The notes below the pieces were generated by a model, which was given only the letters and a program-made list of their open reading frames with translations, was not told the DNA's origin and made no database searches. From a virus, in IMG/VR virus record IMGVR_UViG_3300032073_002483, positions 1-20,822 of that record: DNA of 20,822 nt; one strand, given 5' to 3'. Position 1 is the first letter of the stretch, and each line of letters begins with the position of its first letter. This document shows positions 2,835 through 20,822 of this stretch, piece by piece. Made by a program: the position numbers and the translations under genes.

Positions 2835-3416
2835 ATGTCAGATTGGGCCGCAGACAGCGTCATTAGAAAAAAAGTTGACGAGCTTATACCTTATGAAAGA
2901 AATCCTCGGATACACCCTCAAGCTCAAATAGATCAGCTAGCTCAAAGTATCAGGGAGTGGGGTTGGACAATGCCGATACTCATTGACGAGGGCGGTAACG
3001 TAATTGCGGGTCATGGTAGATTATTCGCAGCCAAGCAGATGAATATTGATGAAGTTCCTTGCGTTACAGCGACGGGATGGAGTCAAGAAAAGAAAAAAGC
3101 GTACGTCATAGCGGACAACAAGCTGTCAGAAAGCGGACGCTGGGATGATGCTTTATATTTCTCTGAGTTGCGCAGCTTGTCAGATACAGGGTTTGATTTG
3201 ACTTTGGTAGGAATGGAAGAAGGGTTTGCTTTCGATGATTTTGAGCCAAACCTCGAGCCTACCGCGAATTTTAGAGATGTATCAAGCAACGATCTTGATA
3301 GGGCATCAAGCAGAATGGCTGATCAAATATCAGGGCTGCAGTCAAATGAGCGCAAGCTAGAAACAGAGGTTATGTGTCCATATTGCGCTGAAACTTTTAC
3401 GTTTACAGGAAACTGA
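2835..3416 (+). CDS. ParB/sulfiredoxin-fold (ParBc) protein with C-terminal CPYC
   Basis: The N-terminal half is a ParB-like domain: VDELIPYERNPRIHP at about residues 14-28, then a helix, then VIAGHGRLFAAKQM with GHGR at 59-62. GHGR is the nucleotide-binding/catalytic loop of the family, which includes CTPase clamps and phage nucleases. The linker is acidic. The C-terminus ends with CPYC at 181-184, half of a zinc-ribbon knuckle; no second CxxC is present, so metal binding would need dimerisation. In phages this ParB type often sits next to DNA methyltransferases, as here. The stop TGATG overlaps the next ATG. Domain call is strong. The role, whether nuclease, DNA-binding guide for methylation or packaging-site marker, is inference. 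Confidence 0.85.
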   Translation: MSDWAADSVIRKKVDELIPYERNPRIHPQAQIDQLAQSIREWGWTMPILIDEGGNVIAGHGRLFAAKQMNIDEVPCVTATGWSQEKKKAYVIADNKLSESGRWDDALYFSELRSLSDTGFDLTLVGMEEGFAFDDFEPNLEPTANFRDVSSNDLDRASSRMADQISGLQSNERKLETEVMCPYCAETFTFTGN

Positions 3417-3682
3417 TGAACAAAAATGAAGCCGTCCGCTGTTTAGAAGCAATGCGCTGGCATTTCGCCAAGAGTATGCCAACAATACCTCATGCGTATG
3501 CCCGTAGGCGTGAGTGGAGCGGAGACAATTTTGATGATGTTGTTGAGTTCATTAGGAGTGCTGGGGTCGCGGAAGCCTTCTACAGCAAGTCATATATTTA
3601 TTTTTATCATGGCGAATATAAGTATTGGACAATGGGATCCCCAGTTCATGAAACAATTTTGATAAACAGGGCTAATTCGTAA
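3416..3682 (+). CDS. Conserved-looking small protein of unknown function, 88 aa
   Basis: This 88-residue protein is coupled to the ParB gene (TGATG overlap, AGGA 5 bases upstream). It has a distinctive pattern rich in aromatic residues and proline: MRWHFAKSMPTIPHAY near the N-terminus, several Arg and Trp, then SKSYIYFYHGEYKYWTMG and ending ETILINRANS. The repeated alternation of aromatic and charged residues suggests a compact beta/alpha nucleic-acid- or nucleotide-binding fold. I recall similar W-H-F-A-K-(S/T)-M-P...P-H proteins as unnamed phage genes, but I cannot name the family. Its place between ParB and two methyltransferases, with overlapping ends, implies it works with them; that is inference. 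Confidence 0.72.
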   Translation: MNKNEAVRCLEAMRWHFAKSMPTIPHAYARRREWSGDNFDDVVEFIRSAGVAEAFYSKSYIYFYHGEYKYWTMGSPVHETILINRANS

Positions 3683-4311
3683 TGATTACAAGTATAGGCA
3701 AGCATAGAGTGCAAATGTCTGATGTCATGGAAGGCATAGATGATTTAATGCAAGGTGAGCAAGCTGACTTTCTTTACAGTGACCCTCCTTGGGGTCAAGG
3801 GAACCTTAGATACTGGCAGACAATAAACAAAAGGCATACAGGCAGGGATAAGTCAGATATTGATTATGCTGAATTTTTGCCGTTTTATTTCAATATGGCC
3901 TATCAGTATGTCAAAGATATTTGCGTCATTGAGTACGGTCAGAAATGGAGAGATGACGTAATAAAGGTTGCTTTTGATGCGGGTTTTAAGCACTCAGGAG
4001 TATGCATTTCAATGTACCAAGCTGGAAAACTTTTGCCTCTTGATGTACACGTTTTCAGCAAGTCTGGGTCAGCAGTAATGACCGATGACTTTAGGAGAGG
4101 TTGCTTGGAGTTTAAAGGTTTGAATTTAGTAAGGTTTGTCTTTAATCAAATGCTTCCTGAAAACTCCAAAATTGTTTTAGATCCTATGTGCGGGATGGGG
4201 TACACAGCGCAAGCCACTGTAGATAAGGGATTGGCTTTTCGCGGAAACGAGCTTAATGAGAAACGCTTAGATAAAACTATAGCTAGACTTAAAAAGGATA
4301 TTGAGTGGTGA
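3682..4311 (+). CDS. DNA methyltransferase, amino-MTase with DPPW motif
   Basis: The protein (209 aa) is a small SAM-dependent methyltransferase of the type that methylates exocyclic amino groups (N6-adenine or N4-cytosine). Catalytic motif IV is DPPW at residues 34-37, within FLYSDPPWG. The SAM-binding motif I comes later: LDPMCGMG at 166-173, followed by an acidic GNELN at 188-192. This permuted order (IV before I) is that of beta-type and MT-A70-like enzymes. There is no separate target-recognition domain, so specificity probably comes from a partner, perhaps the next gene product or the ParB protein. It begins in a TAATG overlap with the 88-residue gene and ends overlapping the next start. 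The enzyme class is clear; base and sequence target are unknown. Confidence 0.83.
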   Translation: MITSIGKHRVQMSDVMEGIDDLMQGEQADFLYSDPPWGQGNLRYWQTINKRHTGRDKSDIDYAEFLPFYFNMAYQYVKDICVIEYGQKWRDDVIKVAFDAGFKHSGVCISMYQAGKLLPLDVHVFSKSGSAVMTDDFRRGCLEFKGLNLVRFVFNQMLPENSKIVLDPMCGMGYTAQATVDKGLAFRGNELNEKRLDKTIARLKKDIEW

Positions 4312-4892
4312 TATATCACACCGCTTTAAAAAACAGGTCTGCTAATTATGGTGGCATAAAAGAGACTGTCAGATCAGATCATCCTAGAGGGGTTATGTTA
4401 AAGCATGATTTTATATCTAACGGGCTAGCTCCTGAGTTTGATGAATGCAATGTGCTATACGCAGAGCCTCCTTATGCCCATAGCGGCCTAAAAATATTTG
4501 ATGCTAGAGCCGGCGTTAATAATAGATCGTACAGTGATTTAATTAAGGCTATGGGCAGTATAATTGAATGCGGATCAATCCCAGTTTATCTGGTTCTAAG
4601 CAGGGCAACTTTAAATAAACTTCCTAAGCCTGATGTAATTTATGAAACTAGATTAAACGGAGACCTTGTATGCTTGGGTGTCTGGAATGATAAAAACCCT
4701 ACCCTGCTATCATCAGTAGAACTAATCTGCAAAACACTTGGGTCTAGGTATAAATGCCTAGGTGATTTTGCTTGCGGATATGGCGCTTCAGTAAAAAACT
4801 TTATTCAAGGCGGGGGTTATAGATTTGTAGCATCAGATTATGACGGGAAGTGCATAACTGTAATGTCGGCGCAGCTAAAGGGCGTTCAGTGA
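4305..4892 (+). CDS. Divergent methyltransferase-fold protein with EPPY motif (possible non-catalytic partner)
   Basis: The 195-residue protein has the same layout as its upstream neighbour: a motif IV equivalent, LYAEPPYAHSG, with EPPY at residues 54-57, and a motif I equivalent, GDFACGYGAS, at 153-162, followed by ASDYD. The key first residue of (D/N/S)PP(Y/W) is Glu instead. In the eukaryotic METTL3-METTL14 pair the active subunit has DPPW and the inactive scaffold has EPPL, so this may be a degenerate partner. Motif I is intact, so SAM binding may be kept. It begins at GTG 4305 or 4308, the latter overlapping the previous stop as GTGA, with AAGGA at 4294-4298. It may instead be an active enzyme of unusual type. 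Confidence 0.68.
   Translation: MVIYHTALKNRSANYGGIKETVRSDHPRGVMLKHDFISNGLAPEFDECNVLYAEPPYAHSGLKIFDARAGVNNRSYSDLIKAMGSIIECGSIPVYLVLSRATLNKLPKPDVIYETRLNGDLVCLGVWNDKNPTLLSSVELICKTLGSRYKCLGDFACGYGASVKNFIQGGGYRFVASDYDGKCITVMSAQLKGVQ
4877..4882 (+). promoter_or_regulatory. RBS supporting the GTG start at 4889
   Basis: AAAGGG lies 6 bases before GTG 4889, which overlaps the preceding stop as GTGA (4889-4892). The open frame continues up to another GTG at 4850, but that start would overlap the neighbour by 43 bases and has no comparable site. Confidence 0.55.
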
Positions 4893-6052
4893 AAATATTC
4901 TTAAAGCAAAACGTATGGGATGCCGCTTTAGAGCGTATCAATAGGATTTTTGATGATTTTGATAATGTGGTAATTAGCAGCAGCGGGGGCAAAGATAGCA
5001 CTGTCACTATGCAATTAGCCCTCAAGGTAGCGGAGGAGAGAGGCAAGCTACCCTTAAAAATGATGTTTTTGGACCAAGAAGCTGAATATCGTATGACGAT
5101 TGAGTATATGCGCAAGGCCATGACAGACCCTAGAGTTGAGCCTATCTGGATTCAGTGTCCGATACGCCTGTTTAACGCAACATCAATGGACGAGCCTTGG
5201 TTGCAGTGTTGGGAAGAGGGGGGTGATTGGATGCGCCCGAAAGAGGATATAAGCATCAAAGAAAATGTGTTTGGCACTGATAGGTTCCATGATATTTTCC
5301 CGAAAATTTTAGACCATTACTTCCCTAATGAGTCAGCTTGTTATTTGGCTGGAGTGCGAGCAGAAGAAAGCCCTACAAGGCTGGCGGGCTTGACTACTTT
5401 TCAAACATATAAAGAGATTACGTGGGGCAAACGCCTCAATGTGAAAAAGAACCATTATACTTTTTATCCAATATGGGATTGGAAATTAGGTGATGTGTGG
5501 AAAGCAATACATCATAACCAATGGGACTATTGCCAGATATATGATGAGCTTTATAGATACGGCATTGCGCCTCACAAAATGAGGGTGTCAAATTTGCACC
5601 ATGAGACGGCTGTGCATAGTCTTTTTTTCTTGCATGAAATAGAAGGCGACACTTGGGACGCTTTAACCAAAAGACTTGGAGGCATCAATCAAGCAAAACA
5701 TATGGAAAAACATGAGATGTTCGCGGTGCAAGAGTTGCCGTATATGTTTGATAGCTGGAAAGAATACAGAGATTATTTGACTGAGAACCTCATTACGATA
5801 CCCGAGAATAGAGCTAAATTTGTCAAGAAATGGGAAAAGATGGATGATTTGTATAGCCTAATGAACAAGCCTCAAGATTTGATTAAGAAACAAATAGGGT
5901 CTCTATTGGTTAATGATTGGGAGTTCGTAAAATTAGATGGGTTTTTAAATAGCCCAGCCATGATTACTTATCGGGACTGGCGCAAAGGCAAGTTAGGAGC
6001 AAGGGCTAGAGCAGACTCTCATATGATTTACATTCAGGAGCAGTATAGATGA
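4889..6052 (+). CDS. PP-loop ATPase, PAPS reductase-like (IbrA-like)
   Basis: This protein of 387 aa belongs to the adenine-nucleotide alpha-hydrolase/PAPS reductase superfamily. Its PP-loop SGGKDST is at residues 32-38, FLDQEAEY (60-67) and GVRAEES (155-161) are typical downstream motifs, and YPIWDW (193-198) lies before a long helical C-terminal region. Length and architecture resemble IbrA, known from E. coli with its ParB-like partner IbrB, which follows here. The family also includes DndC of phosphorothioation systems. However, I see neither the C-terminal ECGLH-type cysteine motif of true reductases nor a CxxC cluster like that expected for a 4Fe-4S centre. The likely chemistry is ATP pyrophosphate cleavage or adenylation of an unknown substrate, not sulfate reduction. 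GTG 4889 is preferred over 4850. Confidence 0.8.
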   Translation: MKIFLKQNVWDAALERINRIFDDFDNVVISSSGGKDSTVTMQLALKVAEERGKLPLKMMFLDQEAEYRMTIEYMRKAMTDPRVEPIWIQCPIRLFNATSMDEPWLQCWEEGGDWMRPKEDISIKENVFGTDRFHDIFPKILDHYFPNESACYLAGVRAEESPTRLAGLTTFQTYKEITWGKRLNVKKNHYTFYPIWDWKLGDVWKAIHHNQWDYCQIYDELYRYGIAPHKMRVSNLHHETAVHSLFFLHEIEGDTWDALTKRLGGINQAKHMEKHEMFAVQELPYMFDSWKEYRDYLTENLITIPENRAKFVKKWEKMDDLYSLMNKPQDLIKKQIGSLLVNDWEFVKLDGFLNSPAMITYRDWRKGKLGARARADSHMIYIQEQYR

Positions 6053-6747
6053 CTTCAACCAGTGACATCAAAAGATGCTTGCTATCAGGAATAACTGATT
6101 TAGACCCAATTGAGGCTATACATTTCTTGGAAGAAGTTAGACAGCTTACGTTTGAGATGAGCCCTCTAAAAGAGCAGCCAGTAGATAGAGTGCGTTGGGT
6201 TGATATTGATTTGGTGCAGGCTAATGACTACAACCCTAACTCAGTGGCAGGGCAAGAGATGGCGTTACTTTATACGTCAATACTTCATGATGGATACACG
6301 CAGCCTGTAGTGACTATATGGGATGAAGATGTTGGCAAGTACGTTATTGTTGATGGATTTCATAGATACTTCACTTGTAAGTCAAATCAAGACATCAAAG
6401 ACCGAAATCACGGCAAATTGCCTATCGTAGTATTACAGAAAAACATAAACGAGAGGATGGCCGCTACGGTGAGGCATAACAGAGCTAGAGGTAAGCATTC
6501 AGTAGGTGGCATGTCTAGTATGGTGTTCTCTATGCTAGAAAACGGTTGGAGTGACGCAGATATATGCAATCACCTAGGAATGAGCGCCGATGAGTTATTG
6601 CGATTAAAGCATATAACAGGGTTCAGCAAGCTTTTTGAGGACACTGAGTATAGCCAGACATGGACTACAAAGCATCAAATAATGCTCAAAAAGAAGCAAC
6701 AAGAATTAGATAATGCTGGATCAAACGATAACGGACAGGCCATATGA
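6049..6747 (+). CDS. ParB-like protein (IbrB-like) with HTH-like segment
   Basis: The protein has 232 residues. After a helical N-terminus, RVRWVDIDLVQANDYNPN (about residues 47-64) begins a ParB-like domain whose signature loop is VDGFHRY, DGFHR at 102-106. A basic segment, RHNRARGKH, follows at 142-150. Residues about 164-191 (NGWSDADICNHLGMSADELL) form a helix-turn-helix-like unit, so DNA binding is likely. It starts in an ATGA overlap with the PP-loop gene, with AGGAG 8 bases upstream. The pair therefore reproduces the IbrA-IbrB gene order. DndB of phosphorothioation systems has a comparable DGQHR motif. It is immediately followed by the small terminase (ATGA overlap), which links the island to packaging. 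Biochemical role unknown. Confidence 0.83.
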   Translation: MTSTSDIKRCLLSGITDLDPIEAIHFLEEVRQLTFEMSPLKEQPVDRVRWVDIDLVQANDYNPNSVAGQEMALLYTSILHDGYTQPVVTIWDEDVGKYVIVDGFHRYFTCKSNQDIKDRNHGKLPIVVLQKNINERMAATVRHNRARGKHSVGGMSSMVFSMLENGWSDADICNHLGMSADELLRLKHITGFSKLFEDTEYSQTWTTKHQIMLKKKQQELDNAGSNDNGQAI

Positions 6748-7304
6748 GCCAAAAATTAACAGATGAATTAAAGCTAACCATCAGAGATGAGTTTGTTCAT
6801 GGTTACACGGATGAAAATGGAGTTAGGCGCTACCCTACTATTGACGGCTTGGTTAAAAGGCACTCAGTGGCCAGAGCTACGTTGTACAAGGCCGCAAGCG
6901 ATGATGACTGGCAAAGCCAAAAAGACAGGTATCAAACAGAGCTAACACTACGTCAGGATGCAGAGCGAATGGAGCGTATGGTGTCAGACTCTAAGCGTCT
7001 TGATGATTCAGCCGTTCAAATAGCCCAAGCAATGATGAGCAAGGTAGGTAGGCGGTTGCAGCGGTCAATGGAAGCAGAGCAGGAGGGTGCATATTTATCC
7101 GCTTTGAGTAATAGCGACTTGCATCAATTGTCATCAGTATTAGCAAATGCGCAAAAGATAGGGAAACTGGCTTTAGGTCAGGCTCAAGAAATTTCTAAGG
7201 TATCAGCAGATGTCAGCAATCCAGAAGCCTTCCAATCAATTATGGAGCAACTTGATGGCCTTGCAGCAGCAAGGTCACAGAGCGACATCAAGTCTGTACA
7301 TTGA
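6744..7304 (+). CDS. Probable terminase small subunit
   Basis: This 186-residue protein carries an N-terminal helix-turn-helix-like region at about residues 30-56 (TIDGLVKRHSVARATLYKA, followed by DDDWQSQ). Long helices follow, probably for oligomerisation, with a Gln- and Ala-rich C-terminus. Small terminases recognise the packaging site and regulate the large subunit. The call rests mainly on the HTH plus helical layout and on its position directly before the large terminase, since small terminases are too diverse for sequence alone. Its start overlaps the upstream stop as ATGA. Its last 50 bases overlap the preferred large-terminase start at 7255, which implies coupled translation. It could instead be a transposase-like HTH regulator, but context argues against that. 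Confidence 0.72.
   Translation: MSQKLTDELKLTIRDEFVHGYTDENGVRRYPTIDGLVKRHSVARATLYKAASDDDWQSQKDRYQTELTLRQDAERMERMVSDSKRLDDSAVQIAQAMMSKVGRRLQRSMEAEQEGAYLSALSNSDLHQLSSVLANAQKIGKLALGQAQEISKVSADVSNPEAFQSIMEQLDGLAAARSQSDIKSVH
7244..7247 (+). promoter_or_regulatory. RBS supporting the large-terminase start at 7255
   Basis: GGAG is placed 7 bases before ATG 7255. An upstream in-frame start at 7210 would add 15 residues and a deeper overlap with the small terminase, without a clear RBS. Confidence 0.55.
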
Positions 7305-8514
7305 CTGGTTAAACACGGCTAGACCTACGCAGATAACTCCGCCAGACGATAACTGGAATATATGGCTTATATTGGCGGGCAGGGGTTGGGGTAAAACGCG
7401 CACAGGCGCAGCAGACGCGCTGCTCTACGCTTTACGGAATCCGGAGGTGCAAGTGGCTGTGGTTACGCCAACTTTTGGAGACCTTAAGAGAACGGCGTTT
7501 GAAGGGCCATCAGGGATATTAAAGTCTTTGCCGAAAGAGTGTGTTATGAGCGGAAGAGGTAGAGGTTATAATTCATCAGGAGCTTCCATCCGATTGTATA
7601 ATGGCTCTCAAATAATGGGTTTCTCTGCTACGGAGCCGGATCGCTTGCGAGGCCCTCAGTTTCATAGGGCTTGGTGCGACGAGTTAGCGGCTTGGCGATA
7701 TCCTGATACTTTTGATCAGCTTATGTTTGCGTTGCGACTAGGGCAGTCCCCGAAGTGCGTAATAACCACTACTCCTAGGCCGACCCCTATCATACGAACT
7801 TTAATGGCGAGGGATGATGTAAGAGTTACGACTGGTAACACTTTTGAGAACTCAGAGAATTTAGCTGCAAGCACATTAAGGATGCTTAAAGACAAGTATG
7901 AAGGCACTACCCTAGGAAGGCAGGAGCTTTATGCTGAGGTCATTGATGCCATGGAGGGCGCATTATGGAAGCCTTCTATAATTGAGGAGACTAGGATCAA
8001 TGCCGATGAAGAGCGTGAGCTAACTAGAATTATTGTTGCGGTAGATCCGGCGGTAACAAACAACAGCGACTCTGATGAAACAGGTATTGTAGTTGTAGGA
8101 AAAGATGCTCAGAATCAGTACTACGTCTTAGAAGATTTATCAGGACAGTATTCTGCTGACGGTTGGGGTAGAATGGCTATTCGCGCCTTTTATGAGTGGG
8201 AGGCAGATCAAATTGTCGCTGAGGTAAACAACGGCGGAGATTTGGTCGAAAGATTAATACGGAGCATAGATGATAGCGTTAATTACAGGGCAGTCCATGC
8301 TACAAGAGGGAAGATCGTAAGAGCCGAACCTGTAGCGGCTCTTTATGAACAACGGCGAGTTCACCACATGGGTATATTCCCAGAGCTAGAATCTCAAATG
8401 TGTACATACACAGGTGAAAGATTAAAGCCAAGCCCTGACAGACTTGATGCCCTTGTATGGGGGCTAGCTGAGCTAAGCAAGTCAAAGGGCGACATAACGT
8501 GGAGAATTAGCTAA
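7255..8514 (+). CDS. terL: Terminase large subunit (packaging ATPase/nuclease)
   Basis: The protein (419 aa) pumps DNA into the prohead and cuts it. The ATPase domain shows Walker A GRGWGKTR (residues 42-49), Walker B HRAWCDELA with D142/E143, and the coupling motif TTTP (171-174). The RNase H-like nuclease domain begins with IIVAVDPAVTNN (D264), continues through VAEVNNGGDLVERLI with its acidic residue, and ends with PDRLDALVWGLAEL, whose Asp completes the metal site. Length and motifs are complete, so an active enzyme is expected. It resembles the family annotated as Terminase_6 ATPase and nuclease. ATG 7255 is chosen because of its RBS; the frame is open to 7210. Its stop overlaps the portal start (TAATG). 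Confidence 0.95.
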   Translation: MALQQQGHRATSSLYIDWLNTARPTQITPPDDNWNIWLILAGRGWGKTRTGAADALLYALRNPEVQVAVVTPTFGDLKRTAFEGPSGILKSLPKECVMSGRGRGYNSSGASIRLYNGSQIMGFSATEPDRLRGPQFHRAWCDELAAWRYPDTFDQLMFALRLGQSPKCVITTTPRPTPIIRTLMARDDVRVTTGNTFENSENLAASTLRMLKDKYEGTTLGRQELYAEVIDAMEGALWKPSIIEETRINADEERELTRIIVAVDPAVTNNSDSDETGIVVVGKDAQNQYYVLEDLSGQYSADGWGRMAIRAFYEWEADQIVAEVNNGGDLVERLIRSIDDSVNYRAVHATRGKIVRAEPVAALYEQRRVHHMGIFPELESQMCTYTGERLKPSPDRLDALVWGLAELSKSKGDITWRIS

Positions 8515-14456: not shown

Positions 14457-14810
14457 ATGAGCGCAGGCTACCATCATTTCATAATAGAGCAGGGTGCTAC
14501 TTTCCAAAAAGTCCTTACCCTAAAGGACTCTAGCGGCTCCGTTGTAAATCTCACGGGCTATACAGCCGCTCAAATGGATTTGCGCACTGACGCAGATCAA
14601 TCTACAGCAGCTATATCTCTTACCATAGCGAACAATCGTATCGCTTTAGGGGCCTCAGCAGGCACCGTGACTCTAACCATTTCAGCTAGCGATACTGGAG
14701 GCTTGATTGCCACAGATGGCGTTTATGATCTTGAGATTACTGACGCGCAAAGTAATATCTTCAGAATAGTTGAAGGAACTTACACTGTTCGCAGAGGAAT
14801 TAGCCGATGA
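14457..14810 (+). CDS. Beta-rich tail/baseplate-type protein, 117 aa
   Basis: The protein (117 aa) is almost wholly beta-strand. The pattern is IIEQGATFQKVLTLKDSSG, VVNLTGYTAAQMDLR, GTVTLTISASDTGGL, DGVYDLEITDAQSN, FRIVEGTYTVRRGISR. This arrangement (an opening strand, then V-x-L-T-G-Y, then Y-D-L-E-I) recurs in small phage proteins encoded just before tail fibres, and resembles the N-terminal fold of some receptor-binding or baseplate proteins such as BppU. It is coupled to the fibre through an ATGA overlap, so it may be the adaptor that attaches the fibre to the tail. GGGGA lies 6 bases before the ATG. Family resemblance is from memory and moderate. Confidence 0.62.
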   Translation: MSAGYHHFIIEQGATFQKVLTLKDSSGSVVNLTGYTAAQMDLRTDADQSTAAISLTIANNRIALGASAGTVTLTISASDTGGLIATDGVYDLEITDAQSNIFRIVEGTYTVRRGISR

Positions 14811-17800
14811 GTAATACCATAAACACTATAACTGTAGAGGGCGAAAGCTCAGTATCAGTTTTAACTGTTGGCACGCAAGGCTTGGCTGGACCAAACACGA
14901 TTCTAGCAAGGTCGGTAGCAGATGCCACGGCAAGCACAGCAGGATCTTTGATCGTTTATGACCACGTCAATACTAGCTGGGTAGATAGCCAATCATCCGC
15001 AGCTCAAAGCATTACGGCAAAGCTATTTAATTTGCAGTTTACGGGCGGAGGGGCCGCTGTAACAGCTGTTCTTGATGAAGATAACCTAGGCAGTAACTCT
15101 AACTCCGCGTTAGCGACACAACAAAGTATTAAGGCTTATGTTGATGCTCAAATAACAGCTCAAGACTTAGATTTTCAAGGCGATACTGGTGGTGCGCTAT
15201 CAATAGACCTAGATAGCGAAACTTTAAACATGCTTGGGGGAACAGGTGTTGATACTGTAGGTAGCGGAAACACAGTAACAATCAACATTGACTCAACAGT
15301 AGTTACTTTATCAGGAACACAAACCTTAACTAATAAGACGCTAACCACTCCTGATATCAATGGTGGCGATATATCAAACGCCACAACAATCAACAAATCA
15401 CCCGTTATCACTCTCGCTGGTGATTTAAGCGGAAACGCTACCCTAACAGAGCTGGGTAATGCCACTCTTACGGCCACAATAGTCGCAAATTCTGTAGCTT
15501 TGGGAACAGATACTACGGGCAGTTATATATCCACTATCGCAGCAGGCGAGGGCATAGACGTATCTGGAAGTGGCGCTGAGTCAGCCACAGTTACGATCTC
15601 AGCCGAAGACGCAACTGACAGCAACAAAGGCGTAGCTTCTTTTAACAGTACTGATTTCACTGTTTCTAGCGGCGCAGTGACGGTTAACGCGGAGCGTGTT
15701 CAAGACATAGTTGGCGGCATGGTGACCGGCAATATTGAGTCAGGAATAGCTGTAACCTATGAAGACTCAGACGGCACCTTGGATTTTAATGTAAACGATC
15801 CGGTTATAACGCTGTCTGGAGATGTTGCTGGTTCAGCTACAATGACAAACCTTGGCGATGTAACGATATCAACCACGGTGCAGGCGAATAGCGTAGCGCT
15901 AGGCACAGATACTACAGGCAATTATCTAGCGACTTTAGCGGCATCAAACACAGGGATTGACGTAGCTAATAGCGGATCAGAGTCAGCGGGGGTTACGGTC
16001 GGGTTAAATACTGAGCACGTTCAAGATTTAGTGGGCGCTATGGTGTCCGGTAACACGGAAAGCGGCGTTGCAGTTACTTATGACGATACAAACGGCAAGC
16101 TAGACTTTAATGTGGCGGATCCTGTAATCACCTTGAGTGGTGACGTAGCAGGTAGCGCGACAATGACTAACCTAGGCGATGTCACAATCTCAACTACGAT
16201 CCAAGCGAATAGCGTGGCTCTGGGAACAGACACCACAGGAAATTACATCGCTACTGTATCGGCTGGCGAAGGGATTGACGTTTCTGGTAGTGGTTCAGAG
16301 TCAGCGACCATAACTATAAGTGCAGAAGACGCTACGGATAGCAATAAAGGTATAGCCTCTTTTGATGCGACTGATTTCTCAGTTAGCTCTGGAGATGTAA
16401 CTTTAAACGCAGAGAGGGTTCAGGACATTGTTGGTGCAATGGTTGGCTCTAATACTGAGAGCGGAATCGCTGTAGCTTATCAAGATGGTGATGGAACATT
16501 AGATTTTAATGTAGATGATTTCACTATAACTCTAGGTGGTGACTTAGGAGGCTCGGTTACAATCACTGACCTGGCATCAGCCACTCTGACGGCGACTATC
16601 CAAGCTAATAGCGTTGCGCTAGGAACGGATACCACTGGCAATTATGTTGCCACTGTAGCTGACGCGGGCAACTCAAGGATAACAGTCGCAAATAATGGCT
16701 CAGAAAACGCGGCCATCACTCTTGATATAACTGATGATGCTATTGGCAATGCTCAAATAGCTGATAACGCAGTAACTTTGGGGACTCAGTCTACGGGCAA
16801 TTATGTCGCCACTATTGCGGGAACCAATAACGAGATAGAAGTATCTGGATCTGGATCAGAAACAGCAGCGGTGACCATTGGATTGCCTGATGACGTGACT
16901 ATCAGCGGCAACTTAGTCGTAACGGGTGATTTTACTGTAAATGGCGATAATGTTGAGCTAAATACGTCATCCTTGAATGTAGAAGATGCAACTATAAGGG
17001 TTGCGAAGGGAGCCACAAGCCTAGCCAACACTAACGGCGCTGGAATTGAGTTTGGGGCATCTAGTAGCAAGCCGACCATTACTTGGGATAATGGCAACTC
17101 TAGGCTGACATCAAACAAAACATTCCACGCCGCTACATTGGTGGGCGCGCTAACTGGCAACGCTTCTACAGCTACAGCGCTAGCAACCCCTCGGGCAATA
17201 GCCCTGACAGGCGATGTAGTGGCCGCAGGGGTTAATTTTGACGGCACTGGGGCAATTACACTAAACACCACTATTCAAGCCAATAGTGTCGCTTTAGGCA
17301 CGGATACGACAGGAAACTATGTAGCTACTATAGCTCAGTCAAATACAGGTATTGATATAGCAAACAGCGGATCAGAAACCGCAGGCGTTACTTTGGGTCT
17401 TAACGCAGAGCACGTTCAAGACCTTATAGGGGCTATGTTCTCCAGTAATACTGAAACAGGAATTACAGCCACCTATCAAGACGGCGACGGAACAATTGAT
17501 CTTGTTATTGGATCTGGAGATATCACTAATGGAATGCTTGCCGGGTCAATAGCTAATGGAAAGCTAGCTAACAGCTCTATAACTGTTACTGATGGTAGCA
17601 ATAGTACTGCCGTATCTCTAGGGGGGACGATTACTTACACTGCTGGCTCTGGAATAGATATAACTGAGTCGTCCGGCGCTATTACAATTGACGCAGAAGA
17701 TGCCACCACCTCAAATAAAGGCGTAGCAAGCTTTGATGCCACGGACTTCGCAGTTTCTTCCGGCGCTGTGACCCTGCAATCTGAAAGAATACAAGATATT

Positions 17801-20800
17801 GCTGGTGCCATGTTCAGCAGCAATACCGAAACAGGTATTACGGCCACTTACCAAGATGCTGACGGAACAATTGATTTAGTCATAGGTAACGGTGATGTAA
17901 CAAATGGAATGCTCGCTAACAGCACGATAACTGTAAGCGATGGCAGCAATACCACGGCTACGGCTCTAGGGGGGACTATCACGTTCTCCGCAGGCGAGGG
18001 GATTGATGTAACTGAGTCATCTGGAACTATAACGGTTGCAGCAGAGGATGCGACAGCATCAAACAAAGGCGTGGCCTCATTTACAAATGATTTTAGCGTA
18101 TCAAGCGGTGCCGTATCACTTGGGGCTAGCGGTGTCACGGCTGGAACTTCAGGCACAAGTACGGCTATTCCAAGAATTACTGTTGACGCAAAAGGCCGTA
18201 TAACAGCAATCACCACAAATAATATCAGCACCAGTTTCACGCTTGCGGCAGACTCTGGCTCAAATGACACGTTCAATACCGGAGAAACGCTAACTTTCAC
18301 CGGCGGCAGCGGTATAGATACCACTGTAAGTGATAATGAGATAACAATTGCAGCCGAAGACGCTACCGATAGCAACAAAGGTGTAGCTAGCTTTGATAGC
18401 ACGGACTTTACGGTAAGTAGCGGAGCAGTAACGGTAAACGCTGAGAGAGTGCAGGATCTAGTCGGTGCTATGCTCAGCAGCAACACTGAGACAGGCATAA
18501 CGGTCACATACCAAGACGGCGATGGAACAATTGACTTTGTTGTTGATACTAGCTCTATATCAGAAACACTAACCAATAAAGCTATTACAAGCCCAGATAT
18601 AAACGGTGGAACTATTGATGGGGCTACAATTGCTACATCAGATGTTACCGTGGGATCCGGCAAAACCTTGGACGTATCTGGCGGCACTTTAACGCTAGCA
18701 GATAATCAGATAAGCGGTGATAAGGTTGAAGGCGGGACTGTGGCCGCTATGACCATCACGGCCATGACGGGAACCTTGCAGACCGCAGCTCAAGCTAACA
18801 TTACTAGCGTGGGAACTTTAAGTTCTCTTGGAGTTACCGGCGATCTAGCTGTAAACACTAACGTATTGAAGGTGGATACTTCAAACAATAGGGTGGGGAT
18901 ATTAGACGCAACACCTGAAGTTAGCTTGGATGTAGGCTCCGCTACTGATGCGGTTCATTTACCAGTGGGGACAACGGGTCAAAGACCTACAGGTGCCGCT
19001 GGCTACTTGAGATATAACAGCACGCTGGGTCGCTTTGAGGGCTTTACTGACGCATGGGGCGAGATCGGCGGAGGCGGATCGAATACTTTTACCGTCAACA
19101 CTTACACAGCAGACGGATCTGGAAAAGCATACACATTAAGTCAAATTCCTAGCTCAGAAGATAACTTGATTGTATTTGTTGAGGGGGTATTCATGAACCC
19201 CAACGACTTTACGTTATCAGGTAACACTTTGACCCTGGACGCGGTGCCGCCATCAGGCCGAAAAATAGTCGTTTACAGCGTCCGTGCAGCGGTTAGTGGT
19301 AGCAACCTAAACCATGATCAATTCACCTGTAACGGAGGCAGTGGCAACCTAGGCACGCAATTCACGTTAAGCATTGAGCCGGTAAGCGAGAATAACACTC
19401 AAGTCTTTTTAGATGGCGTATATCAACAAAAAACTGACTACGCAGTAAGCGGCACGACCTTAACAATGGACACCGCTCCCACCAGTGGCGCGATACTTGA
19501 AGTGATGACGTTTACTCAAACGGACATTAATGTACCGACAAATGACACCATAGATACCAGCCACCTCAAAACCGATGCTGTCACAACGGCCAAGATCACA
19601 GATGCCAACGTGACCCGCGCCAAAATTGCAGCAGATGCAATTGATGCGACAAAGCTGGCAGACGGCGCGGTTAGCGAAGAGCACCTTGACCCAACCATTA
19701 TAAGCGGACTTACAGCAGCAACGCCTGTTTCGGGTGACAGCATTATGTTCTTGGATGCTACAGATAGCGCGCTCAAGAAAGCAGACGTCAATGAGATCAT
19801 GGCTACAGCGGTGAGCATTACCTCTGCCGCAGATGCCGTGGCTATGTCATTTGATAGCAGTGAGAACGCAACGTTCACTGGTCAGGTAGTAGCTAACGCT
19901 GGTGTGGTAGTAGATAACATCACAATAGATGGGACTACGATTGGCCTAAGCTCTGGCGACCTAACGCTAGATGCTGCAGGAGACATTATCCTTGATGCGG
20001 ATGGCGCACAAGTTATATTTAAAGATGCTGGAACAACAATCGGTGGATTTAATAATAGTAGTAGCAACTTAAATATATTCTCGCATGTGCAAGATAAGGA
20101 TATCGTATTTACTGGTGACGATGGTGGTCTTACTATCACAGCCCTCACCCTTGATATGTCAGATGCTGGTAAAGCTACTTTTAATTCTGCTCTAGATGTA
20201 GGCGGAACAATAACTATTAATGGTAGTGGTAACTTAAACCTACCAACAGACTCTGGAACTATTTATTTAGGTGCTGATGCAGATTTAAGAATCTTGCATA
20301 CAGGTTCAGCAGGTCAAATTAATAATACTACTGGCGACTTAACACTAGATGTAGCTGGCGACATCATCCTTGATGCTGATGGTTCAACAATAACAATGAA
20401 AGATGGTGGCACTACTAGAATTACATTCAATTTAGATGCTACTCCAGACTTTGTTATGGCGGGAGGTAACGCAAGTATAACTGCTTCTACTTCTGATGCA
20501 GATTTGTCTTTTATAGGAAACGACGGTGGTTCAGATGTAACAGCCCTCACCCTTGATATGTCAGCGGCGGGTGCGGCTACGTTTAATGCGGGTGCTACTT
20601 TTGGCGGCAGCGTCGGGATTGGCTCCGCGCCTTTTGCACCACTTCATGTAAAAGAAACAGGATGGAGTAGTGGATCTCCCTACGGCACAGTCCAGTTAAT
20701 TGAAGGCAACGCCGTTAATGACAACAACTGGGGTCATCTTGTTATAACAGATACAGACACTGCCGTAGGTCAAGGTGGCGCGATTAGTTTTGCTACAGGC

Positions 20801-20822
20801 GCAGCTAGTTCAATGAATCCCT
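14807..20822 (+). CDS. Giant modular tail fibre/adhesin, 3'-partial (at least 2005 codons)
   Basis: ATG 14807 overlaps the preceding stop (ATGA), with AGAGGA 8 bases upstream. Translation by eye found no stop through the window end. The N-terminus has GTQGLAGPN, then VLDEDNLGSNS...LATQQSIKAYVDAQ (from about residue 90), a common phage fibre motif. TLTNKTLTTPDINGG follows at about 174. Repeats built of ANSVALGTDTTGNY, AEDATDSNKGVASF and VQDLVGAM...NTESGI fill about 199-1250. Later come GQRPTGAAGYLRYN (about 1391) and two tandem beta modules (about 1426-1573). Next are a TAKITDAN...AKIAADAI helical repeat (about 1595), FLDATDSALKKADVN, and two LDADG modules. The protein should be a long, trimeric host-binding fibre; the receptor-binding tip is off the window. 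Size and repeats suggest a recombination-prone gene. Confidence 0.9.
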   Translation, partial: MSNTINTITVEGESSVSVLTVGTQGLAGPNTILARSVADATASTAGSLIVYDHVNTSWVDSQSSAAQSITAKLFNLQFTGGGAAVTAVLDEDNLGSNSNSALATQQSIKAYVDAQITAQDLDFQGDTGGALSIDLDSETLNMLGGTGVDTVGSGNTVTINIDSTVVTLSGTQTLTNKTLTTPDINGGDISNATTINKSPVITLAGDLSGNATLTELGNATLTATIVANSVALGTDTTGSYISTIAAGEGIDVSGSGAESATVTISAEDATDSNKGVASFNSTDFTVSSGAVTVNAERVQDIVGGMVTGNIESGIAVTYEDSDGTLDFNVNDPVITLSGDVAGSATMTNLGDVTISTTVQANSVALGTDTTGNYLATLAASNTGIDVANSGSESAGVTVGLNTEHVQDLVGAMVSGNTESGVAVTYDDTNGKLDFNVADPVITLSGDVAGSATMTNLGDVTISTTIQANSVALGTDTTGNYIATVSAGEGIDVSGSGSESATITISAEDATDSNKGIASFDATDFSVSSGDVTLNAERVQDIVGAMVGSNTESGIAVAYQDGDGTLDFNVDDFTITLGGDLGGSVTITDLASATLTATIQANSVALGTDTTGNYVATVADAGNSRITVANNGSENAAITLDITDDAIGNAQIADNAVTLGTQSTGNYVATIAGTNNEIEVSGSGSETAAVTIGLPDDVTISGNLVVTGDFTVNGDNVELNTSSLNVEDATIRVAKGATSLANTNGAGIEFGASSSKPTITWDNGNSRLTSNKTFHAATLVGALTGNASTATALATPRAIALTGDVVAAGVNFDGTGAITLNTTIQANSVALGTDTTGNYVATIAQSNTGIDIANSGSETAGVTLGLNAEHVQDLIGAMFSSNTETGITATYQDGDGTIDLVIGSGDITNGMLAGSIANGKLANSSITVTDGSNSTAVSLGGTITYTAGSGIDITESSGAITIDAEDATTSNKGVASFDATDFAVSSGAVTLQSERIQDIAGAMFSSNTETGITATYQDADGTIDLVIGNGDVTNGMLANSTITVSDGSNTTATALGGTITFSAGEGIDVTESSGTITVAAEDATASNKGVASFTNDFSVSSGAVSLGASGVTAGTSGTSTAIPRITVDAKGRITAITTNNISTSFTLAADSGSNDTFNTGETLTFTGGSGIDTTVSDNEITIAAEDATDSNKGVASFDSTDFTVSSGAVTVNAERVQDLVGAMLSSNTETGITVTYQDGDGTIDFVVDTSSISETLTNKAITSPDINGGTIDGATIATSDVTVGSGKTLDVSGGTLTLADNQISGDKVEGGTVAAMTITAMTGTLQTAAQANITSVGTLSSLGVTGDLAVNTNVLKVDTSNNRVGILDATPEVSLDVGSATDAVHLPVGTTGQRPTGAAGYLRYNSTLGRFEGFTDAWGEIGGGGSNTFTVNTYTADGSGKAYTLSQIPSSEDNLIVFVEGVFMNPNDFTLSGNTLTLDAVPPSGRKIVVYSVRAAVSGSNLNHDQFTCNGGSGNLGTQFTLSIEPVSENNTQVFLDGVYQQKTDYAVSGTTLTMDTAPTSGAILEVMTFTQTDINVPTNDTIDTSHLKTDAVTTAKITDANVTRAKIAADAIDATKLADGAVSEEHLDPTIISGLTAATPVSGDSIMFLDATDSALKKADVNEIMATAVSITSAADAVAMSFDSSENATFTGQVVANAGVVVDNITIDGTTIGLSSGDLTLDAAGDIILDADGAQVIFKDAGTTIGGFNNSSSNLNIFSHVQDKDIVFTGDDGGLTITALTLDMSDAGKATFNSALDVGGTITINGSGNLNLPTDSGTIYLGADADLRILHTGSAGQINNTTGDLTLDVAGDIILDADGSTITMKDGGTTRITFNLDATPDFVMAGGNASITASTSDADLSFIGNDGGSDVTALTLDMSAAGAATFNAGATFGGSVGIGSAPFAPLHVKETGWSSGSPYGTVQLIEGNAVNDNNWGHLVITDTDTAVGQGGAISFATGAASSMNP
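15401..16735 (+). repeat. 720-bp (240-codon) in-phase super-repeat within the fibre
   Basis: Matched landmarks recur exactly 720 bases apart: PVITL (15401/16121), ANSVALGTDTTG (15485/16205), AEDATDSNKG (15602/16322), VQDIVG (15698/16418), a second ITL...GD strand (15812/16532), and a second ANSVALGTDTTG (15884/16604). Similarity fades after about 16735. Each unit has a long half (399 bp, with AEDAT) and a short half (321 bp). Third positions differ widely between copies, so the duplication is old, yet length is kept perfectly. Confidence 0.85.
17414..18545 (+). repeat. Second block of fibre repeats (AEDAT and VQD..GAM modules)
   Basis: Further copies of the two modules occur here. VQD-type GAM motifs stand at 17414, 17789 and 18449, and AEDAT at 17693, 18041 and 18353. 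The AEDAT-to-VQD offset is 96 bases in each copy that has both (also at 15602 and 16322). The copy at 18041 has lost its VQD half. This block shares NTETGI and GTIDL/GTIDF wording, different from NTESG and LDFNV in the first block, so the two blocks expanded separately. Confidence 0.8.
19082..19525 (+). repeat. Two tandem beta modules of the fibre
   Basis: Module 1 (about 19082-19282) reads FTVNTYTADGSGKAYTLSQ, LIVFVEGVFMNPNDFTLSG, and ends VVYSV. Module 2 (about 19310-19525) reads FTCNGGSGNLGTQFTLSI, QVFLDGVYQQKTDYAVSG, and ends EVMTF. They share the V(E/D)GV...DF/Y..SG.TLT.D..P.SG layout common in phage fibres. Confidence 0.75.
19949..20590 (+). repeat. Duplicated LDADG fibre module with a 25-bp exact direct repeat
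   Basis: Copy 1 (from about 19949) and copy 2 (from about 20327) share SGDLTLD/TGDLTLD, AGDIILDADG, a KD.GTT segment, D.GG...TALTLDMS and ATFN. An identical 25-base stretch occurs at 20138-20162 and 20540-20564. The repeated GACAT(T/C)ATCCTTGATGC segment lies at 19982 and 20360, so copy 2 has a net 24-base (8-codon) insertion relative to copy 1. Near-identity at DNA level points to a more recent event than the 720-bp repeat. Confidence 0.78.

Follow-up and report, generated by a model that had tools for sequence, protein, structure and literature searches.

Four core genes around an exchangeable enzyme slot beside phage terminase genes: a candidate modular DNA-modification system

The marine phage record IMGVR_UViG_3300032073_002483 (IMG/VR), whose 20,822 bases are called the window here, carries an island of six tightly coupled genes (g1 to g6, 2835-6747, plus strand) that run into terminase genes and resemble parts of several described systems. 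The IbrA/IbrB pair has been described as co-activators of prophage gene expression (PMC4490671). The PP-loop protein g5 and the ParB-type protein g6 (ParB2) are homologous to the two partners and stand in the same tandem. Known pairs are annotated as prophage co-activators or as 3′-phosphoadenosine-5′-phosphosulfate (PAPS) reductase, whereas the island pair is embedded in a larger core with a second ParB-type protein (g1, ParB1), a small unnamed domain (g2) and a variable enzyme slot. A second comparison is with phage ParB-methyltransferase fusions (PHROG 498; PADLOC MTase_II PDLC03229), one of which (L032) lies immediately upstream of terminase genes. There g1 corresponds to the ParB half and g3 resembles the methyltransferase half, but in the island the halves are separate genes, and g2, the IbrAB pair and interchangeable enzymes are added.

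The Dnd system also places a PP-loop ATPase (DndC) beside a ParB-superfamily protein (DndB) in a DNA-modification locus, and an earlier note on the window had seen a relation to it. DndC has 4Fe-4S cysteines and a cysteine dyad (PMC10853773). The island g5 has neither, and its similarity to DndC is weak and local. None of the six island proteins gave a hit to DndD or DndE, and the island's neighbors are terminase and amidoligase genes. With the iron-sulfur cysteines, DndD and DndE all missing, Dnd-like phosphorothioation was rejected. Phage DNA hypermodification pathways include base oxidation followed by glycosylation, and Mom-type GNAT enzymes. Enzymes of these same classes occur in the slot, paired in the same way (an HxD protein with a glycosyltransferase), but the constant IbrAB-ParB1-g2 core with an exchangeable slot sets the island apart. 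Each component is known at least in part, and DNA hypermodification by phages is an established kind of system; a description of this core with such a slot was not found in the literature, of which our coverage was incomplete.

We propose that the island is probably one version of a modular phage DNA-modification system, in which four core genes (ParB1, g2, the PP-loop gene and ParB2) work with exchangeable decorating enzymes; modification is what the gene content predicts. Comparison of gene orders and alignments demonstrates that the genes form a core plus a slot, that this arrangement recurs next to unrelated terminases and that slots are precisely exchanged between near-identical phages. 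The earlier note had described the six genes as a compound DNA-modification locus tied to packaging genes. Its observation is confirmed: all six open reading frames (ORFs) are present, with domains assigned by profile and, for g4, by an AlphaFold2 (AF2) fold. Its interpretation is partly supported. The ParB-methyltransferase theme and the IbrA/IbrB pair bear out a compound locus, and the genes recur, but the six-gene set is one of many combinations, and the unit is the four-gene core plus its slot.

Co-occurrence, named beforehand as the test that could refute that note, proved strong. Searches of IMG/VR were anchored on single genes, with loci collapsed at 95% DNA identity and at least 3 kb required on both sides. 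Among non-redundant viral loci anchored on g2, the PP-loop gene, ParB2 and ParB1 were each present in 29/30. A PP-loop gene was found in 33/36 loci anchored on g3 (MT1), 19/19 anchored on g4 (MT2) and 21/21 anchored on an HxD protein from other versions of the slot. These reciprocal searches reject chance neighbors as an explanation. All four core genes occur together in 112 non-redundant loci, of which 81 lack the terminase type of the window. Searches with g4 and g5 gave the order (amidoligase/GGACT)-ParB1-g2-[variable]-PP-ParB2-TerS-TerL-portal. Among the matches listed, ParB2 directly follows the PP-loop gene in 163/194 non-redundant loci (the two genes overlapping in 94% of those) and lies within two genes of it in 181/194. 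The two also match nearly identical sets of named phages (215 vs 218 records); for g2, g3 and g4, tblastn found no close homologues in named phages. When 54 of the genes downstream were sampled, at least 37 had matches to families of the large terminase subunit, distributed over many PHROGs, and the PP-loop/ParB2 pair adjoins the terminase in Mycobacterium phage Athena, Arthrobacter phage Salgado, and Microbacterium phages Rasputia and Hendrix.

The slot lies between ParB1/g2 and the PP-loop gene. In the window it holds MT1 and MT2, which on the evidence of these comparisons are replaceable occupants outside the constant core. Other versions pair an HxD...H protein with a glycosyltransferase-like protein (matching PHROG 854 at up to 1.4e-10), or carry a PHROG 854-type glycosyltransferase with MT2, a GNAT acetyltransferase with MT1, or an S-adenosylmethionine (AdoMet) decarboxylase (SpeD) with a SET-g2 fusion. 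MT2 alone, g2-methyltransferase fusions, and another glycosyltransferase or GNAT also occur. When 76 slot proteins that had no other label were tallied by Pfam, there were 19 GNAT proteins, about a dozen class I methyltransferases, six AdoMet decarboxylases and two sugar-nucleotide epimerases. The HxD...H protein, whose motif is kept in 41 of 46 homologues and whose profile found no match in the PDB, occurs together with a glycosyltransferase in 31/36 of its loci, a pairing that hydroxylation before glycosylation would predict.

Slots are exchanged cleanly between related phages. In loci L050 and L236, identity is 94.8% as far as position 1299, next to the end of ParB1 at 1297, and 96.8% again from 2370 (the PP-loop gene starts at 2371). 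They cannot be aligned in between, where GNAT and MT1 are exchanged for a glycosyltransferase and the HxD protein. For L221 and L353, about 5 kb aligns at 92.7% until ParB1 ends, and similarity returns exactly at the start of the PP-loop gene. The same pattern is seen at 83% between L002 and L040, where the left boundary coincides with the g2 end. On a tree of PP-loop proteins, a minimum of 77 changes in slot type is required across the 136 tips that carry a label (among the matches listed), compared with at least 91, and a mean of 97, when slot labels are shuffled. Judged by this tree and these alignments, the slot turns over quickly and the core is retained.

ParB1 (2835..3416, plus strand, 193 aa) has a ParB/Srx-type domain (ParB_N, 4.6e-5; phrog_620, 4.6e-48) with a GHGR motif and a conserved C-terminal CxxC; C..C lies within the last 60 residues in 180 of 184 homologues. 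It is the counterpart of the N-terminal half of the phage ParB-methyltransferase fusions (4.8e-43 to the PHROG 498 model, 4.3e-34 to PDLC03229). It is 53% identical over 124 residues to the N-terminus of UOF79262.1, an "adenine specific DNA methyltransferase" of MW202613 whose gene directly precedes the terminase genes. In Fusobacterium phage phiFN37, a ParB1 homologue adjoins a queuine tRNA-ribosyltransferase-type gene and is near a preQ0 transporter gene. Genes of these two types are familiar from 7-deazaguanine DNA modification. ParB2 (6049..6747, plus strand, 232 aa) is an IbrB-like ParB/Srx protein (ParB_N; phrog_2159, 4e-71) with a C-terminal helical region and a DGFHR motif found in 194/199 homologues, one of which, in phage CHPC877, is annotated IbrB. 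A plasmid-type partition system (ParABS) was rejected: no ParA-like gene was seen among the ORFs examined around the island, and the island ParB matches NCBIfam parB_part far below the cut-off.

The PP-loop gene g5 (4889..6052, plus strand, GTG start) encodes a 387-aa IbrA-like ATP pyrophosphatase that matches PAPS_reduct (4.8e-16) and DUF3440 (8.5e-7), both above the Pfam cut-off. In 167 PP-loop sequences, among the matches listed, the SGGKDS motif stands at 98-100% and no cysteine column exceeds 74%; an alignment of 13 distant members contains no invariant cysteine. Without a conserved cysteine, g5 can rely neither on a conserved thiol, in the manner of PAPS reductase, nor on a 4Fe-4S cluster and cysteine dyad of the DndC type. 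Among solved structures, FAD synthase and CysD are its closest relatives (8.7e-8 and 9.6e-8), with PAPS reductase behind (2.3e-4). Both of the former transfer adenylyl groups, which suggests that g5 may adenylate a substrate.

Several side observations touch the PP-loop/ParB pair. IbrA-like genes occur in 599 plasmid records, mostly from Klebsiella and E. coli, and the one E. coli plasmid region inspected (L365) has PP-loop and ParB genes and no slot enzymes. A haloarchaeal plasmid (L366) carries two PAPS-reductase-family genes and a ParB gene within 5 kb, extending the association to archaea. In Mycobacterium phage Gaia (L036) and Pseudoalteromonas phage XCL1123 (L037), an ectoine-synthase-like cupin beside the PP-loop gene either is fused to ParB2 or precedes it, and this cupin may be another variant partner of the pair.

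Of the two slot enzymes in the window, MT1 (g3, 3682..4311, plus strand, 209 aa) is N6_N4_Mtase-like. Its motif IV (DPPWGQG) precedes motif I (DPMCGMGYTA), the order of a beta-class amino-methyltransferase, and DPPW is present in 73/73 homologues. DPPW is a motif of enzymes that methylate exocyclic amino groups. MT2 (g4, 4308..4892, plus strand, 194 aa, GTG start) had no hit in family profile searches. Its AF2 model (pLDDT 85, pTM 0.85) has a DNA amino-methyltransferase fold: the best Foldseek matches are M1.HpyAVI, CcrM, M.BceJIV and rotifer N4CMT (2.5e-4 to 1e-3), and the best 36 PDB matches are all DNA N6-adenine/N4-cytosine methylases. MT2 has a DFACGYG motif I and, as motif IV, EPPY, which departs from the canonical (D/N/S)PP(Y/W/F). 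Its homologues have EPP[WFY] in 25/45 and DPP[WY] in four, and 15 do not match the motif pattern. The pairing of DPPW with EPPY recalls METTL3/METTL14, and an obligate pair of that kind was considered and rejected. Many loci (L012, L013, L018, L020) have MT2 and no MT1, and MT1 also occurs without MT2, which makes an obligate heterodimer unlikely.

The remaining core gene, g2 (3416..3682, plus strand), encodes an 88-aa alpha+beta domain with the sequence pattern W.FAKTM..PH.Y ... KYWTM ... INRA and is a candidate adaptor or reader. It matched nothing in Pfam, NCBIfam or PADLOC, and its PHROG match was at chance level (0.054). A fold search with its AF2 model (pLDDT 89.6, pTM 0.79) found no match in the PDB (best E 0.23) and a single match to a viral model (6.6e-7). 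In phages, g2 is fused to methyltransferase, SpeD, SET or GNAT domains. In some bacterial genomes, it is fused to GmrSD (L214) or stands directly downstream of GmrSD (L212 and L215) or of McrC (L217). Restriction by GmrSD and McrBC depends on modification. All three cases with GmrSD come from Bacteroidales, so they may represent one lineage. That g2 reads a modified nucleotide is possible, if rather doubtful. In a further set of loci (L310, L312, L316, L201, L203, L204, L208-L210), g2 stands C-terminal to an unclassified domain with no Pfam hit where tested. This layout is similar in phage contigs and in bacterial genomes, several of them Flavobacteriaceae.

We suggest the following working model. 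ParB1 and ParB2 would position the machinery on the phage's own DNA. The PP-loop enzyme would spend ATP to activate a base by adenylation, and possibly install a primary group. The slot enzymes would then decorate the activated base, by methylation in the window and with glycosyl, acetyl or aminopropyl-type groups elsewhere, and g2 would recognize, bind or present the modified nucleotide. Exchange of the slot would alter the final chemistry, and with it which host nucleases can attack, and could be driven by host restriction that reads modifications. The DNA target and ParB positioning are the better supported steps; PP-loop activation, the role of g2 and the restriction drive are the least supported. 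DNA is quite likely the substrate, because ParB1 is fused to a DNA methyltransferase beside the terminase in MW202613, MT1 has DPPW, the best fold matches of MT2 are DNA N6A/N4C methylases, the phiFN37 homologue lies beside the queuine tRNA-ribosyltransferase and preQ0 transporter genes, and some bacteria have g2 fused to, or next to, genes of modification-dependent restriction. Restriction as the selective force on the slot has about an even chance of being right, and the order of steps given here is tentative, a little short of even.

Several points weigh against this proposal. The modified base is itself a prediction from gene content. The PP-loop set consists of the matches listed and is largely made up of metagenomic viral contigs. 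The EPPY motif of MT2 may be inactive, and the HxD...H protein is a putative dioxygenase by its motif alone. Elsewhere in cells, g2 is joined to NUDIX, nuclease or unclassified domains, making "reader" just one possible reading of g2. Adjacency to the terminase is common, not universal: IbrAB loci lie away from it in Gaia, Streptococcus 94, phiFN37 and plasmids. Finally, IbrAB occurs without recognized slot enzymes in 31/166 viral loci (among the matches listed) and on the E. coli plasmid, so that its function might be regulatory. Such loci in other phages and plasmids fit a self-sufficient core and also fit a regulatory role.

A regulatory role leads to the rival view that IbrAB and ParB are regulators of transcription or replication, and that the slot enzymes are orphan methyltransferases or morons that accumulated by chance. 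The co-activator description of IbrA/IbrB in PMC4490671 and the occurrence of IbrAB alone on many plasmids agree with it. Orphan morons, however, should occur elsewhere too, and the association of slot enzymes with the core is reciprocal and nearly complete; the swap boundaries coincide with the ends of core genes, and the PP-loop catalytic motif is essentially invariant. We regard this rival as improbable. Slightly less so, though still unlikely, is that the target of the island is not DNA but, for example, tRNA, a protein of the capsid or tail, a glycan or some small molecule, and that the ParB-fold proteins act only as NTPases. The glycosyltransferase, GNAT, SET, SpeD and sugar-nucleotide epimerase of the slots also serve glycan, protein and small-molecule chemistry, and an amidoligase and GGACT pair flanks the island in some loci. 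Against such a target, ParB1 is the N-terminal half of DNA methyltransferase fusions, MT1 and MT2 show the motifs or fold of DNA amino-methyltransferases, g2 meets GmrSD/McrBC genes in some bacteria, and the locus is beside the terminase and not beside tail or lysis genes.

The position beside the terminase raises a further alternative, proposed in part by the earlier note, that the pac or cos region receives a mark by which the neighboring terminase recognizes phage DNA. The overlap of g6 with the small terminase gene, the terminase families among the downstream genes sampled, and the arrangement in Athena, Salgado and Rasputia would suit it. Many IbrAB loci are not beside a terminase, however, and rapid exchange of the slot is not expected if a conserved terminase reads the mark. 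Nothing found points to a packaging site in particular, and we consider this alternative very improbable. Least credible of all is that the PP-loop gene is a PAPS reductase (cysH), an auxiliary metabolic gene for sulfur assimilation with chance neighbors. Automatic annotation does name it PAPS reductase/cysH, and virome surveys (PMC9301287, for example) read phage cysH as sulfur cycling. For the family of g5 that reading is doubtful, given the lack of a conserved cysteine, ParB2 within two genes in nearly all of the loci listed, and adenylyltransferases as nearest solved relatives.

If DNA modification is the correct reading, IbrA and IbrB, long annotated without a known chemistry, would gain a concrete function in it. 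The common phage "PAPS reductase" genes would act in DNA modification, correcting the sulfur-metabolism reading of viromes, and a modular genetic system would be at hand in which one slot decides the chemical group added to DNA. The small unannotated g2 domain occurs both in modification loci of phages and in some modification-dependent restriction loci of bacteria, and would allow the arms race of modified phage DNA with type IV restriction to be tested directly. A bolder proposal, which we advance with less confidence than the order of steps above, is that these loci form an undescribed class widespread in phages. A universal IbrAB-ParB1-g2 core would put a common chemical handle on DNA or activate one, and a swappable cassette would add a methyl, glycosyl, acyl or aminopropyl-type cap, letting phages change their DNA "serotype" by swapping one slot. 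On that proposal, g2 would be a new modified-nucleotide reader that type IV restriction enzymes of bacteria also have, and DNA-modification enzymes would be the products of many phage "cysH" genes now taken for auxiliary metabolic genes.

The island is followed by genes that we place outside the proposed system. A putative small terminase subunit (TerS; 6744..7304, plus strand) has a weak match to phrog_2538 (0.095), precedes the large-subunit gene and is kept in relatives. The large terminase subunit (TerL; 7210..8514 at its ORF maximum, plus strand) matches Terminase_6N (1.1e-19) and Terminase_6C (2.6e-17). Successive overlaps from g1 through g6 to TerS are 1, 1, 4, 4, 4 and 4 bases, the last being that of g6 with TerS, as the earlier note had seen. 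That note had put the overlaps at 1-8 bases; the tight coupling stands, but the 8-base overlap vanishes with the GTG starts of g4 at 4308 and g5 at 4889. The promoter it placed upstream of g1 is, at 2783-2812, plausible as a 9/12 match to the consensus, but no better than background, as the region has 11 matches against 11.3 expected in shuffled DNA.

On the other side, overlapping genes for a GGACT/AIG2 (gamma-glutamyl-cyclotransferase-like) protein and an Amidoligase_2 protein flank the island on the minus strand (1247-2702). The pair was considered as part of the system and rejected, as it flanks only 31/194 loci (among the matches listed) and is found moved or inverted. It is inverted in L012, L013 and L023 and lies between ParB2 and TerS in L027, L046 and L050, and so looks like a separate mobile module. 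At the far end of the window (14807-20821), an open frame that contains repeated segments and exceeds 2000 residues continues past the contig end and looks like a tail-fibre-type gene.

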